Virus record (IMG/VR): IMGVR_UViG_3300004770_000037
Coordinates: 1-42,825 of that record
Length of the DNA: 42,825 nucleotides
Reading direction: 5' to 3' (one strand)
From: a virus
The notes under the pieces: generated by a model
What the model was told of the DNA's origin: nothing
Databases searched by the model: none
What the model saw: the letters and a program-made list of their open reading frames with translations, nothing else
Program-made: the position numbers and the translations under genes
Shown here: one piece after another, positions 7,301 to 18,274 of the stretch
Layout: the number at the start of each line of letters is the position of its first letter
Numbering within the stretch: position 1 is the stretch's first letter

Positions 7301-8260
7301 TCAAAATTCCGAGGGAAGATTGTGATGCCATTTCAAAAACTCGCCCCCATCAATAAGAATCAGCTTCTCATTTTTAGCGGCACTCTCCGTTGCACCATCG
7401 GTAAATCTTGAGGTTGTCACAAGATAACCTCGATCTGCACCGTGTTCTTCAATGACCCCCTTGAATTTTTGCACATCCGGCCTTCCCACTGGATTCTCCA
7501 GAGCATAACGCTTGCACTGCACAATAATAAGACCTCCACCCCTAACTTTGGCGAAGCCATCTACCCCCATATCATTTGACTTTTTCGTAACCCAAGCCAG
7601 TTCAATCGCCGGAACATCAAAAAAGCTCATGACATGGCATTCGAAATCGTAAGGGTCCATCGACAATAGATGCCTCATGGCCGCCGATGGTTCGACGGGC
7701 ATATCTGACCGAAATGGCACCTGGCACTCTTGAACCATCGCCCGCCGTAAGCGAGAACTTGCTTGCCGCAATGCTTCATCTGCGGCAATCAATGCGACAA
7801 CTTCCATTAAAGCTGATGCCCCACCCCTACTTATAGCAATAGCCTCAATCACCGAGGTGATTCCAGCCGACCCAAGAAAAACCAATAGCAATATTGGAAC
7901 GCCCGTTGCGCTCCCAAGCGCGGCCACGCCGACAGCCTGACCTCCCATGACTGTTGAAGCCAACAAAGTCACGGGTATAGCAATTTTAACTGCGATAGGA
8001 AGATCTGAGTCCTTATAATTTTTAACACTCTCGCTAACACTATTAAATACAACCGACAGAGATGCCTTTGAATCCAACAAAGCATAAAGTCCTTTGGCCT
8101 TCTCTAATCGTGGCAAATCACTTTCAATCACCCCCCGTGAAGACTCAAGCCACGCAATGATTGCAATTCGATCCTCTTCCTTGGAAACATGACCAATCGC
8201 ATTCACAAAAACATCAACGAGCCAGTGGCGTATTTTTTCGATCATAGAATCAGAAATCAT
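7301..8260 (-). CDS. Membrane-anchored Mrr-family restriction endonuclease-like protein
   Basis: The C-terminal 110 residues of this 319-aa protein match the Mrr catalytic fold (PD-(D/E)xK): DPYDFECHV, then GVDG with D234, then IIVQCKRY with Q248 and K250, then GYLVTTSRFT. The N-terminal half is a helical region (1-85) followed by two hydrophobic stretches (about 89-110 and 118-143) rich in Gly/Ala, so the nuclease domain is probably held at the inner membrane facing the cytoplasm. The ATG at 8260 has GGGAGGG upstream. The gene sits alone between the repressor and the second operator cluster, and is visibly more AT-rich than its neighbours. A role in excluding incoming phage DNA is inferred. 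Confidence 0.8.
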   Translation of the reverse strand: MISDSMIEKIRHWLVDVFVNAIGHVSKEEDRIAIIAWLESSRGVIESDLPRLEKAKGLYALLDSKASLSVVFNSVSESVKNYKDSDLPIAVKIAIPVTLLASTVMGGQAVGVAALGSATGVPILLLVFLGSAGITSVIEAIAISRGGASALMEVVALIAADEALRQASSRLRRAMVQECQVPFRSDMPVEPSAAMRHLLSMDPYDFECHVMSFFDVPAIELAWVTKKSNDMGVDGFAKVRGGGLIIVQCKRYALENPVGRPDVQKFKGVIEEHGADRGYLVTTSRFTDGATESAAKNEKLILIDGGEFLKWHHNLPSEF

Positions 8261-8305
8261 TTTCCCTCCCCGCACACGCAGCAAACCAACCCGCAATAGA
8301 CGAAC

Positions 8306-11165: not shown

Positions 11166-11263
11166 GAGTCGAAATGCTGGTTACCCCCCTCACAGAGACA
11201 CAGCAGGACGGCAGAGGCACCAAGCCCCAAACGGTGGAAGGCCGAATGATCATGGAGATGACA

Positions 11264-11896
11264 ATGACGAACGCCACCCCCCAGTTTTTCCCGCCACCGC
11301 GCAAAATCGGCTATGCCCGCGTCTCGACCGACAAGCAAGACACCGCCTTGCAACTGGACGCTTTGAATGCGGCTGGCGTTCCCACCAGCGCCATCTTCAC
11401 CGATAAAATTTCCGGGTCACGCGATGACCGCGAAGGTCTGCGCGAGGCGTTGGAGTCCTTGGATCGCGGCGTTGTCCTGGTGGTGTGGCGGATCGACCGT
11501 CTTGGCCGTTCTTTGCGCCATCTGTTGACCCTGTCCGAAATCATCGAAGCCAAGGGGGCCACACTGGTTTCCCTGTGCGAAGGCATCGACATGGGAACAC
11601 CCGCCGGTCGCATGGTGTTTTCCATGCTGGGGGCCGTCGCCCAATTCGAACGCGATGTAATCAGTCTGCGCACCCGCGCCGGTCTGGCTGCCGCCGCCAA
11701 ACGGGGCGTCAAACTGGGGGCCAAGGCCAAGCTGCCGGTGGGAAGCCAATTATGGACCGATGTCCGCGCCGACATGCTGCGCGGCATGCAGGGCCACCGC
11801 ATTGCCCGCAAATACAAGGTCTCGGAAGCAACCTTATACAAAACCTTCCCCGGTGGCCGCGCCGCGCTTTTGGCTGCGGAATCCGGGGCGGAATAA
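11264..11896 (+). CDS. Serine recombinase, resolvase/invertase family
   Basis: A 210-aa small serine recombinase. The catalytic serine is S21 in IGYARVSTDKQD. Downstream are RIDRLGRS, the dimer-interface helix (AGRMVFSMLGAVAQFERD) and a C-terminal HTH (GHRIARKYKVSEATLYKTF). It would catalyse site-specific resolution or inversion through a covalent phosphoserine link. The ATG at 11264 has GGAGAT upstream; in-frame ATGs at 11246-11258 are possible. The phage also has a tyrosine integrase, so this enzyme is not needed for integration. No inverted-repeat crossover pair was found by eye. Confidence 0.9.
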   Translation: MTNATPQFFPPPRKIGYARVSTDKQDTALQLDALNAAGVPTSAIFTDKISGSRDDREGLREALESLDRGVVLVVWRIDRLGRSLRHLLTLSEIIEAKGATLVSLCEGIDMGTPAGRMVFSMLGAVAQFERDVISLRTRAGLAAAAKRGVKLGAKAKLPVGSQLWTDVRADMLRGMQGHRIARKYKVSEATLYKTFPGGRAALLAAESGAE

Positions 11897-14164: not shown

Positions 14165-14310
14165 CCGACCGCCGATGCCTTCTGTGCAAATTCATGTGCC
14201 GTGATCCAGGCGTTAAGCCGTCCTGCGTGTCGCCAAAATCCTGCATTGCCAAAAGTCAGTGGCAAGCTGCCACCGATGATATCGACCTTTCAGCGAAAGG
14301 ACCGTCATGA
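14161..14310 (+). CDS. Tiny Cys-rich protein, 49 aa
   Basis: From the ATG at 14161 a 49-codon frame runs to TGA at 14308-14310. It overlaps the upstream stop and the downstream excisionase start, both as ATGA, so it is likely translated. Five cysteines (C6, C9, C13, C22, C28) start with a CxxC pair, pointing to a small zinc-binding fold. I recognise no family. Confidence 0.55.
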   Translation: MTDRRCLLCKFMCRDPGVKPSCVSPKSCIAKSQWQAATDDIDLSAKGPS

Positions 14311-14639
14311 CCACCATGGAAATCCACGAACTTGGGACATTGCTGCGTGACGTTGTTGCCTCGACCGTCAAAAGCGTTCCAGATTTATTGACTGCGGACA
14401 AAGCGGCAGAACGCCTAGGGATTTCGGTCAAAGTTTTCCGCAGCGAAGTGCGCTCGAAAAGAATTCGCTTTATTTTAATTGGCCGCCGCCGGAAATTCAC
14501 CGAAGACGATCTTAACGCCTACATTGAAAAACAACGCGGGATGATTCCATGTCAGTCTACAAGCCGAAAGGTTCACCGCACTTCCACTATGACTTCCAAT
14601 TCAAAGGTGTACGACATTATGGCTCGACGGGGTGCGTAA
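14307..14639 (+). CDS. xis: Excisionase-like HTH protein
   Basis: Residues 29-77 form a winged HTH of the excisionase/MerR type: LLTADKAAERLGISVKVFRS, then the wing FILIGRRRKFTEDDLNAYI. The gene overlaps the integrase start by 91 bases, the usual place for Xis. It would bend attachment-site DNA and favour excision. The last 30 residues lie in the overlap and look unstructured, so the working domain is about 80 aa. Confidence 0.78.
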   Translation: MTTMEIHELGTLLRDVVASTVKSVPDLLTADKAAERLGISVKVFRSEVRSKRIRFILIGRRRKFTEDDLNAYIEKQRGMIPCQSTSRKVHRTSTMTSNSKVYDIMARRGA

Positions 14640-15745
14640 AACACACCGATGCGCTTGAGTTCGAGAACGCCGAACGCACCAAAGTTTCCCATGCCTATGC
14701 CTATGGCAAAGAGCCCGACAAGGCCAGTATGACGGTCCGCCAAGCCTTCGACCGCTATTATCAAGAAGTCAGCGAACACCGCGCCTTACCCAGCAACGAT
14801 CTTTTCCGTTTGATATCCATCGCCACCGCGCTTGGTCCAGATCTTCAATTCGCCCATATCACTGACGATAAAGTGGCCCTGATGGTGGCAAAATTGCGCG
14901 CACGCACAGTCATCACTAAACGCGGCAGCACTGACGGTAAGGCGCACCCGCAGATGATCGCCAATGCCACCGTCAATCGCTATACCGAATGCTTGCGCCG
15001 GGCCTGGCGACGCGCCGCCCGCGTCTGGAAAATCGCCTGCGCCGACGAACCTCTCTGGAATCAACACCTGTTGCCCGAAGCCACCGAGCGTGTACGCGAT
15101 CTGACGGAGGATGAAGAAACCAGATTGATGAAAGCGTTGCGCGTGGACTTTCACCCCATCGCCAAGTTCGCCTTAATGAGCGGTCTGCGATTGGCCAATC
15201 TGCGCCGCTTAACCTGGAAAGAAATCGATTTTGCCAATCGGTCACTGACCATCAAGGTCAAATCGAAAAAACAAGGCGGTGAAAATCACACCATCCCTTT
15301 GACCACATCAATGATCACAATGCTGGCCAACCTGAAAGGGCAACATCCCATCTTCGTGTTTACCTACGAATGCCACCGCCCCAGAACGATCAAGGGCCCG
15401 GACGGCAAGATAACGGGAAGGCGCAAAGGCGAACGCTATCCGTTCAGCCTGAATGGTTGGCGGAAGGTTTGGACTGAAGCCCTGGCGACGGCAAAGATTG
15501 AAGACTTCCGCTTCCATGATACCCGTCACACAGCGGCCACCCGCACCCTGCGCGCCAGTGGCAACCTAAAGGTGGTGCAGAAGATGTTGGGCCATACCGA
15601 CATCACGACGACGGCACGCTATGCGCACGCCCTAACAGACGACATCCGCGCCGCCATGGAACAGGCCCAGGCCCCGGACAAATCGAAAAATGAGTCCCGA
15701 AATAGCCCGAGCAAGCAAACGCGCAATGGCAAAAAAAGCGTTTAA
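14549..15745 (+). CDS. int: Tyrosine site-specific integrase
   Basis: A 398-aa phage integrase. The N-terminal 60 residues are an arm-binding domain, followed by a SAM-like core-binding domain (about 60-165). The catalytic set is R214 (SGLRLANLRRL), a Lys near 240 in the beta hairpin, H323 and R326 (FHDTRHTAATR), H349 (MLGHTD) and the nucleophile Y358 (ARYAH). It integrates the phage at the tRNA-Pro site whose half copy lies 33 bases after its stop codon. One integrase arm-type repeat (15691-15705) is inside its own 3' coding end. Confidence 0.93.
   Translation: MSVYKPKGSPHFHYDFQFKGVRHYGSTGCVKHTDALEFENAERTKVSHAYAYGKEPDKASMTVRQAFDRYYQEVSEHRALPSNDLFRLISIATALGPDLQFAHITDDKVALMVAKLRARTVITKRGSTDGKAHPQMIANATVNRYTECLRRAWRRAARVWKIACADEPLWNQHLLPEATERVRDLTEDEETRLMKALRVDFHPIAKFALMSGLRLANLRRLTWKEIDFANRSLTIKVKSKKQGGENHTIPLTTSMITMLANLKGQHPIFVFTYECHRPRTIKGPDGKITGRRKGERYPFSLNGWRKVWTEALATAKIEDFRFHDTRHTAATRTLRASGNLKVVQKMLGHTDITTTARYAHALTDDIRAAMEQAQAPDKSKNESRNSPSKQTRNGKKSV
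15691..15705 (+). repeat. Putative integrase arm site, left arm
   Basis: TGAGTCCCGAAATAG, identical to 15903-15917 on the other side of the attP core. It lies inside the last codons of the integrase gene, about 75-80 bases left of the core. Confidence 0.55.
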
Positions 15746-15777
15746 TATCAATGGAGTTAACGAGGATGAGAAACAAT

Positions 15778-15817
15778 CTCCCAAAGCTAGCGCTCTACCA
15801 GGCTGAGCTACACCCCG
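15778..15817 (-). other. attP core: 5' half of tRNA-Pro(TGG)
   Basis: On the minus strand from 15817, a 40-base stretch reads as the 5' half of an alphaproteobacterial tRNA-Pro: acceptor strand CGGGGTG, TA, D-arm GCTC...GAGC, anticodon stem CTAGC and loop TTTGGGA with anticodon TGG. Identity stops one base after the loop, where ATTG replaces the expected stem. No 3' half exists nearby, so this is not a complete tRNA gene. Next to the integrase gene it is best read as the attachment core, with strand exchange in the anticodon loop. It carries the 5' half of the tRNA, where most phages carry the 3' half. Confidence 0.82.
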
Positions 15818-15826
15818 TGTCAAGGT

Positions 15827-15855
15827 TTAGTAGGGGTTTCCGCAGTTTTGTGCAA
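15827..15855 (-). promoter_or_regulatory. Promoter reading into the tRNA-Pro half
   Basis: TTGCAC (15855-15850) and TACTAA (15832-15827) with a 17-base spacer on the minus strand. The expected start is near 15820, three bases before the tRNA 5' end at 15817. After integration it would transcribe a hybrid tRNA made of this half and the host 3' half. Confidence 0.6.
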
Positions 15856-15880: not shown

Positions 15881-15926
15881 TATTTCGGACTATTATGGGA
15901 CTTGAGTCCCGAAATAGTCCCGAAGG
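15881..15926. repeat. Putative integrase arm sites, right arm
   Basis: Three related copies: TATTTCGGACTATT (15881-15894, inverted), TGAGTCCCGAAATAG (15903-15917, identical to the left arm) and AATAGTCCCGAAGG (15913-15926). Repeated sites on both sides of a core are expected for a tyrosine integrase attP. Confidence 0.55.
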
Positions 15927-15966
15927 GTGTTCTTGGGGTGTTCTCAAACGGAGGTGCGGTGAAACC

Positions 15967-16779
15967 GTGAAGGCATCTGTTTCTATATTGGTCCTGGTGC
16001 TGGCAACCACCGCGTGTTCGATGGCGCAGGATATACCGCCCACTGCCATCAATGCCCCACCCGCCGCCGCAGCCAATCCCACCGTCGTCAATGGTGTCCC
16101 ATTACCATCGACGGCTAAATGTGGGGCAGTGGTGACGCATGACGCCTATGTCGCTTGCGTCGACAATGATCTTAAAATTCCGCTGTGGGTAGCTTATCGG
16201 CTAACTGGCGAGCACACGTTGGGGTGCCTGCCCCGAACCAATGCCTTTCACGCCGACGAAGCTTTGCCAGCGGGACAGCGCGCTACGCCGAAAGACTATG
16301 CCAAATCGGGGTATGATATGGGGCACCAGGCCCCCGATAAAGATTTTGCCTGGGATGCCCAGGCCGAACATGACAGCTTCAGCATGGCCAACATGGCGCC
16401 GCAATTGCCGGGGCTGAACCGCATGGGCTGGGAATCTTTGGAAGAAGATGTGCGCGTATGGGCCTGGGATCGCGGTGCGCTGGTGGTCTATGTTGGGCCA
16501 GTGATGGACAAATCCCCCAAACGCATTGGCAATAATGGCGTGGCTGTACCGTCCGCCTTCTGGAAAGTTGTGGTGGACGAAAAAACCCGCGAGGCGTTGG
16601 CGTTTGAAATGCCCCAAGCCAATATTCCCAAAGGGGATATATCGCCCTATTTGAAGGGATTGAGTGATGTTGAGGCGGACAGCGGCACGGACATTCCGGG
16701 TCTGCTGGCGACATCATCCGCCATTTGGGCAATCAAGGCGAAGGATTGGCGTGCAGCGAAGAAGGCGGCTTGCAGATGA
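15967..16779 (+). CDS. Exported DNA/RNA non-specific endonuclease
   Basis: Secreted nuclease of the Endonuclease_NS (NucA/Serratia nuclease) family. The GTG at 15967 is chosen because it opens directly on a signal sequence (VKASVSILVLVLATTACSMAQ). TTAC could be a weak lipobox, or signal peptidase I may cleave near AQD. The catalytic block is YDMGHQAPDKDF with His at about 120, followed by NMAPQLPGLNRMGWESLE with the metal-binding Asn at about 142-151 and Glu. D-M-G-H differs from the usual DRGH by one residue, not at the histidine. The length of 270 aa is normal. Placed beside attP and outside the lytic operons, it looks like a lysogenic-conversion gene acting in the periplasm. Confidence 0.85.
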   Translation: MKASVSILVLVLATTACSMAQDIPPTAINAPPAAAANPTVVNGVPLPSTAKCGAVVTHDAYVACVDNDLKIPLWVAYRLTGEHTLGCLPRTNAFHADEALPAGQRATPKDYAKSGYDMGHQAPDKDFAWDAQAEHDSFSMANMAPQLPGLNRMGWESLEEDVRVWAWDRGALVVYVGPVMDKSPKRIGNNGVAVPSAFWKVVVDEKTREALAFEMPQANIPKGDISPYLKGLSDVEADSGTDIPGLLATSSAIWAIKAKDWRAAKKAACR

Positions 16780-17893: not shown

Positions 17894-18274
17894 ATGTCGG
17901 CAGTTATTTTATCCTGTACACAAGGTGGGATTTGGCAATCAAACGGAAACGGCGGCTACAATGGGTTTGGTCCGGGCATTCAAGGTCAGATGTGGGTATC
18001 TGATGGCAACGGCGGGTTCAATGGATTTGGTCCGGGCATCCAAGGCCAAATGTGGAGATCCGACGGTAACGGTGGGTTCAACGGATTTGGGCCGGGAATT
18101 CAAGGTCAAATGTGGAGGTCCGACAGCAACGGTGGGTTCAACGGATTTGGGCCTGGGATTCAAGGCCAAATGTGGAGAACTGACGGCAAAGACGGATTAA
18201 ATGGGTTTGGCCCTGGAATTCAAAATAAGATGTGGCGTTCAAATGGCGCGGGCGGATTCAACGCTTTTTCATAG
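17894..18274 (+). CDS. Protein of five 20-residue Gly/Trp repeats, 126 aa
   Basis: AAAGGA precedes the ATG. After a short N-terminus (MSAVILSCTQGGIWQSNGN, itself a partial repeat) come five 20-residue units with consensus GGFNGFGPGIQGQMWRSDGN, then GGFNAFS. Each unit has one Trp, three positions for Phe/Tyr/Leu and many Gly/Asn/Asp turns, which suggests a small beta-solenoid or propeller-like repeat fold. There is no signal peptide or membrane segment. The DNA units differ at many synonymous third bases but little in protein, so the repeat has been kept by selection. The function is unknown; carbohydrate or protein binding are guesses. Confidence 0.75.
   Translation: MSAVILSCTQGGIWQSNGNGGYNGFGPGIQGQMWVSDGNGGFNGFGPGIQGQMWRSDGNGGFNGFGPGIQGQMWRSDSNGGFNGFGPGIQGQMWRTDGKDGLNGFGPGIQNKMWRSNGAGGFNAFS
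17951..18250 (+). repeat. Five tandem 60-bp coding repeats
   Basis: In-frame units start at 17951, 18011, 18071, 18131 and 18191. Codons for the shared GFGPGIQG block vary (for example GGTCCGGGCATT, GGGCCTGGGATT, GGCCCTGGAATT), showing age and protein-level constraint and arguing against fresh slippage. Confidence 0.85.

Follow-up and report, generated by a model that had tools for sequence, protein, structure and literature searches.

A candidate phage attachment site combining the 5' half of tRNA-Pro(TGG) with a tRNA-type promoter, and its counterparts in integrated relatives

The sequence studied here, IMG/VR virus record IMGVR_UViG_3300004770_000037 (positions 1 to 42,825, the whole stretch of 42,825 nucleotides (nt) being termed the window), probably belongs to a temperate phage with an alphaproteobacterial host. 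We propose that the region from 15778 to 15855 is part of its attachment site (attP), that the phage integrase recombines within the anticodon stem-loop of a host tRNA-Pro(TGG) gene, and that the lysogen would make this tRNA from a phage promoter; we assign this reading a probability of about 0.87. The crossover point, the activity of the promoter and the dependence of the tRNA on the prophage are inferred from sequence comparison.

The attP core lies on the minus strand, where 40 nt from 15817 to 15778 (CGGGGTGTAGCTCAGCCTGGTAGAGCGCTAGCTTTGGGAG) represent the 5' half of tRNA-Pro(TGG), with tRNA position 1 at 15817 and the anticodon loop TTTGGGA at 15785-15779. The match reaches through this loop and ends at 15778, the following bases being ATTGT instead of CTAG; ARAGORN found no complete tRNA in the window. 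Among 385 genomes searched, 39 nt of the half are identical to the complete alphaproteobacterial tRNA-Pro(TGG) gene of G171 (locus L141), and 13 further genomes match with one or two mismatches, which is far beyond chance. Upstream of the half, and likewise on the minus strand, a -35-like hexamer TTGCAC (15850-15855) is separated by 17 nt from a -10-like hexamer TACTAA (15827-15832). The latter ends 9 nt ahead of tRNA position 1, in the same position class as the -10 elements of native alphaproteobacterial tRNA genes, and implies a start about 2-3 nt upstream of the tRNA. The first-pass annotation, made from the letters of the window alone, had claimed both the 40-base identity through the anticodon loop and this placement of TTGCAC-17-TACTAA; the former is confirmed by the sequence and the G171 match, and the latter also holds. 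Putative P'-arm integrase-binding repeats with a period of 11 (TTCGGGACTATTTCGGGACTC, 15904-15924, minus strand) are accompanied by a second putative repeat pair (AGAACACCCCAAGAACACCC, about 15926-15946, minus strand). A putative P-arm site, with a repeat (GAGTCCCGAAATAGCCCGAG) matching those of the P' arm, is found on the other side of the core at 15692-15711 (plus strand), within the 3' end of the integrase gene (int). This gene (14549-15745, plus strand) encodes a tyrosine integrase of 398 amino acids (PF00589, E=4e-28; phrog_1 integrase, E=8e-55), with the catalytic R/H-x-x-R/H/Y kept in the alignment; its 3' end is 33 nt from the tRNA half, and the two are convergent.

Tyrosine integrases act on inverted core sites flanking a 7-bp overlap, a form that the anticodon stem-loop has (PMC8371274). 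Outward from the core, the P' side of attP would thus comprise the tRNA 5' half, the -10/-35 tRNA-type promoter and the arm-type integrase sites. Recombination in the anticodon loop would join this P' side, promoter and 5' half included, to the host 3' half, and would strand the host promoter on a 5' fragment that faces int and has no further use. In the lysogen, transcription of the tRNA would then start from the phage promoter, and excision would restore the host promoter. The near-palindromic anticodon arm allows attP to carry either half of the tRNA on its P' side; a promoter is needed in the 5'-half orientation only.

Relatives of the window integrase (about 35-52% identity) were drawn from annotated phages, alphaproteobacterial genomes and IMG/VR. 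Scans with degenerate peptides yielded no close relative in viral contigs and one distant relative in genome contigs; the relatives were recovered with an alignment query. In four integrated elements (G001, G016, G492 and G510) both junctions could be compared. All four have a complete tRNA behind the element's arm and promoter, and the host upstream region on a displaced 5' fragment beside int, which is intact in G001, G016 and G492. Judged from these junctions, the predicted element-borne promoter is in each case the nearest one upstream of the rebuilt tRNA. In Altererythrobacter sp. CC-YST694 (G001), a tRNA-Val(TAC) fragment lies beside int at C1:340926 and the complete tRNA-Val at 384474, with a prophage of about 43.5 kb between them. 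In G016, the tRNA-Pro(TGG) 5' fragment (C2:104900-104938) and the complete gene (55109-55185) are separated by about 50 kb. At up to two mismatches the 39-nt half occurs nowhere else in this genome, so that there is no near-identical spare tRNA-Pro(TGG). The phage-side and host-side promoters of G016 have TTGCA, the spacing of 17 nt, CCTAGTTT and the last 26 nt in common, and their spacers differ; this is the pattern that selection on -35 and -10 would leave, and it would be expected if both copies must work. G492 is an IMG/VR provirus with both ends within one contig of 39,968 bp. Here an arm and the promoter TTGCCT-17-TAAGGC precede the complete tRNA-Pro. At the opposite end, the 5' fragment comes after the 3' end of another tRNA, which indicates that the native gene had been second in a tRNA cluster or operon. 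G510 is a decayed element with a truncated int and a mutated 5' fragment; its tRNA-Pro is intact and stands behind a phage-type arm (GTCGGGACTATGTCGGGACTC) and the promoter TTGCCA-17-TAGGAA. Since the genes read just inside this element are not phage-like, it may represent an island, or else a prophage of which much has been replaced. The prediction that integration parts the host tRNA from its own promoter and replaces it with a phage 5' half and promoter agrees with these four pairs of junctions: the hybrid tRNA is complete in every case, and in none of them does the host promoter stay on the complete tRNA.

The arrangement is not confined to integrated elements. Directly downstream of int, the relatives carry a convergent 5' half of tRNA-Pro(TGG), tRNA-Pro(GGG) or tRNA-Val(TAC), followed by a promoter. 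The same layout was seen in the free phages Sphingopyxis VSN-002, Rhizobium RHph_I3_18, 'Synechococcus' Yong-M3-232 and 'Microcystis' Mvi-Yong1342-1, and in many IMG/VR contigs. Repeats with a period of 11 or 12 of the type CGGGACTATTNCGGGACT, which we read as putative arm-type integrase sites, occur 83-140 nt (mostly about 117 nt) upstream of the tRNA half at 12 of 15 attP sites; upstream of native genes they were present at 0 of 29 tRNA-Val and 1 of 27 other tRNA genes. As far as sequence can tell, a 5' half with its dedicated, predicted tRNA-type promoter is the norm across a wide clade of alphaproteobacterial integrases. We considered 5'-half use as the mark of a single clade and rejected this, as L044, which has a 3' half, branches inside the 5'-half clade (97/93 support). 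As a side note, the tyrosine integrase of Sphingopyxis phage VSN-002 (L003, MZ127829.1, coding sequence QVJ07677.1) is labelled 'telomere resolvase', a label contradicted by its int-attP layout.

For the promoter we used a -35/-10 model trained on 41 native tRNA upstream regions only (consensus TTGCGC-17-TATAGG). The family set consisted of 19 phage-side 5'-half sites next to related integrases, with 450 windows of neighbouring phage DNA as controls. L047, which resembles a host flank, was excluded from the final set. L038 had been taken for an attP without promoter; this was rejected, as it is the host side of an integrated provirus whose phage side has a promoter. The median score was 10.4 for the phage-side sites, 9.0 for native tRNA genes and 4.0 for the flanking controls; phage-side and control scores differ with p=4e-9 (6e-8 with two near-copies dropped), values that overstate independence because the 19 sites share descent to varying degrees. 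TTG opens the -35 hexamer in 18 of the 19 sites, and the spacer is 17 nt long in 15.

Several observations weigh against the proposed reading. Taken on its own, the promoter match in the window is weak and not significant: with a score of 7.3 it falls at the 89th percentile of the phage DNA controls, and the window offers 387 sites of equal or higher score in 85,594 positions, or an expectation of about 0.09 per 20 nt. What makes it convincing is that its position is conserved across the relatives. Not every relative conforms, the attP of L043 having no recognisable promoter and several tRNA-Val sites obtaining low model scores (those of L004 and G001, with TTGACG and a 16-nt spacer, fit the model less well). 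It has to be kept in mind, too, that the integrases of the four integrated relatives are only about 42-52% identical to that of the window, and that no lysogen of the window phage or of a close relative was found among the genomes searched. Finally, the exact tRNA-Pro match of G171 sits in DNA of 33% guanine plus cytosine (GC), compared with 56% in the window. No related integrase was found in 11 genomes of the order of G171; G217 and G383 match the tRNA-Pro half with one mismatch.

A rival idea is that the two hexamers are nothing but captured host flank, and that the tRNA of a lysogen is transcribed by read-through from phage genes upstream. Such an origin is indeed likely for G016, whose two copies agree in all of the last 26 nt ahead of the tRNA, and a window promoter within chance together with the promoterless L043 would suit it. 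Host origin is compatible with present function, however, and the -35/-10 pair has been kept in G016 despite a diverged spacer and diverged surroundings, as well as across the 19 sites, whose flanks are mostly dissimilar. In G492, moreover, the host gene follows another tRNA and has no promoter of its own directly ahead, whereas the phage copy has one. We therefore regard mere capture as improbable. Somewhat less improbable, though still unlikely, is that the promoter serves the phage itself, by directing, before integration, an antisense RNA that runs out of the tRNA half across the 3' end of int, with the feeding of the tRNA as a by-product. The geometry would allow this, since the tRNA half faces int at 33 nt with no complete tRNA between them, and the host promoter comes to occupy this antisense position once the phage has integrated. 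Yet the good fit was obtained with a model trained on tRNA genes of hosts, and after integration the promoter is the nearest one to a tRNA that, in G016, has no near-identical copy; antisense and tRNA-driving roles are also compatible with each other. Whole tRNA genes are carried by many phages, and the 40 nt might be the degraded remains of such a gene rather than an attachment core. We consider this very improbable: the identity ends exactly at the anticodon loop, the half is flanked by arm repeats and lies 33 nt from int, and halves of this kind are present at both ends of the four integrated elements, whose junctions contradict the idea.

Our preferred reading, in which attP brings its own tRNA promoter, bears on how such sites change over time. 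L043 and L044, whose integrases are 51% identical, carry opposite halves (5' and 3', respectively) of tRNA-Pro(TGG), each beside int; the 3' half of L044 is best read as an attP orientation flip at the palindromic anticodon arm. A hidden Markov model of the arm, built without G001, recognised the phage side of G001 (E=2.6e-6) and its host side as well (E=0.0017), and had no match in 59 native tRNA-Pro/Val loci. The 'host' flank of G001 thus carries a phage-type arm, pointing to an earlier takeover. The host flank of G016 contains a perfect CGGGCAATTCAT tandem repeat, and the two flanks together suggest that an earlier phage of the same kind had used the same tRNA. In G510, the element's arm and promoter still precede tRNA-Pro, though the element has decayed and the abandoned host fragment is mutated. 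This raises the question if repeated infections act as a ratchet that leaves tRNA genes permanently on phage-derived promoters, with the phage able to tune or withdraw the tRNA supply. According to this proposal, the piece of arm plus promoter cannot be lost, because a tRNA without a spare copy would depend on the phage promoter. The traces in G001, G016 and G510 support the ratchet but do not prove it, and we put it forward tentatively, at slightly less than even odds. The notion that phage-arm relics abound at native tRNA-Pro/Val genes was discarded, with repeats at 0 of 29 tRNA-Val and 5 of 30 tRNA-Pro loci (6% in shuffles). By eye, a single native locus is relic-like: 240 nt upstream of an apparently prophage-free tRNA-Pro, L157 (G391:C1:187417) has a TTGCGC -35-like hexamer preceded by GTGTGCCATAAATTGTGCCA and TTCCGTTTCGTTC. 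Its layout resembles the L017 arm, a transposase-like open reading frame (ORF) is nearby, and it is possibly the scar of a lost phage.

The general kind, in which an element supplies the 5' half, is known but rare. In Islander, 159 of 3919 mapped islands carry 5' fragments of the tRNA gene (tDNA) and 3760 carry 3' fragments (PMC4383910), bearing out the statement of the first-pass annotation that tyrosine-integrase phages usually carry the 3' half; anticodon-loop sites are one recognised crossover class (PMC4383910). As in the 5'-fragment islands, the window phage combines a tyrosine integrase and a tDNA target with a supplied 5' part that restores the gene. Its recombinase stands beside an attP that shares a block with a tRNA gene, this gene is rebuilt in the four relatives, and the piece displaced there is a 5' fragment. 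Unlike in the Islander paper (PMC4383910), where the word 'promoter' is absent, a promoter here travels with the 5' half and is kept across the clade. For archaeal pTN3 elements, the review PMC8371274 (citing Cossu et al. 2017) describes a tRNA driven by the element promoter; it calls this 'seldomly encountered in bacteria' and states, citing Williams 2002, that in bacteria recombinant tRNAs retain their original promoter 'with very few exceptions'. As with the pTN3-like integrases, the promoter predicted to be nearest upstream of the rebuilt tRNA lies inside the element. In pTN3, however, the promoter in question is that of the integrase, and int is split on integration (a suicidal integrase), whereas in the present case int stays whole and convergent, and the core is followed by a separate, predicted tRNA promoter of the sigma70 type. 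A lysogen of mycobacteriophage Fionnbharth (PMC10865867) depends for a tRNA function on the phage, which also provides the promoter, as we suppose here. There, a whole separate tRNA gene replaces an inactivated host gene; the window holds no complete tRNA, and the phage would instead restore the host gene by contributing a 5' half and a promoter. Sinorhizobium phage phiLM21 and its relatives (PMC5537653; L012, L027) have a related integrase and target tRNA-Pro(GGG), but carry the 3' half in the usual design, so that the host promoter stays with the tRNA. In the literature searched we found no earlier description of the dedicated-promoter variant, most of the subscription literature, including Williams 2002, being outside reach. 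What is new is an alphaproteobacterial integrase clade with a dedicated tRNA-type promoter, an intact convergent int, and putative orientation flips and phage-promoter scars.

The remaining gene content of the window includes terminase, portal, head, tail and primase genes alongside excisionase and integrase. The probable excisionase (HTH_17; PF12728, E=6.5e-11; phrog_66, E=4e-8) is located 5' of int and overlaps it (14307-14639, plus strand). A serine resolvase (11174-11896, plus strand; PF00239, E=6e-44) is a second recombinase beside the tyrosine integrase. Directly adjoining attP, we found a DNA/RNA non-specific endonuclease with a lipoprotein-like leader (15970-16779, plus strand; PF01223, E=2.5e-43); a longer version of this ORF, whose start at 15751 is probably wrong, runs over the promoter and the tRNA half. 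A small tandem-repeat protein (QGQMWRSDGNGGFNGFGPGI; 17894-18274, plus strand) had no match in the PHROG comparison. At 7301-8296 (minus strand), a Mrr-type restriction endonuclease domain (PF04471, E=1e-26) follows hydrophobic segments; this gene possibly serves anti-phage (superinfection) defence.

An attP of this kind can name the hosts of environmental phages. The tRNA-Val half of 'Synechococcus phage' Yong-M3-232 (L004, OM868076.1) does not differ from the one found in Altererythrobacter and numerous Sphingomonadales, and the attP half of 'Microcystis phage' Mvi-Yong1342-1 (L017, PP496355.1) looks alphaproteobacterial as well, so that the hosts of both may be alphaproteobacteria living in cyanobacterial cultures, and not the cyanobacteria after which the phages are named. 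The usual view holds that tRNA integration in bacteria is promoter-neutral, with a phage 3' half and a host promoter that stays in place. According to our proposal, promoter takeover would be routine in a broad set of phages and proviruses of Rhizobium, Sphingomonadales and other alphaproteobacteria, offering a natural test of how much divergence a tRNA promoter tolerates with its output kept. Maintenance of the prophage would be tied to a tRNA that the cell needs, which predicts that such prophages are not freely deletable.
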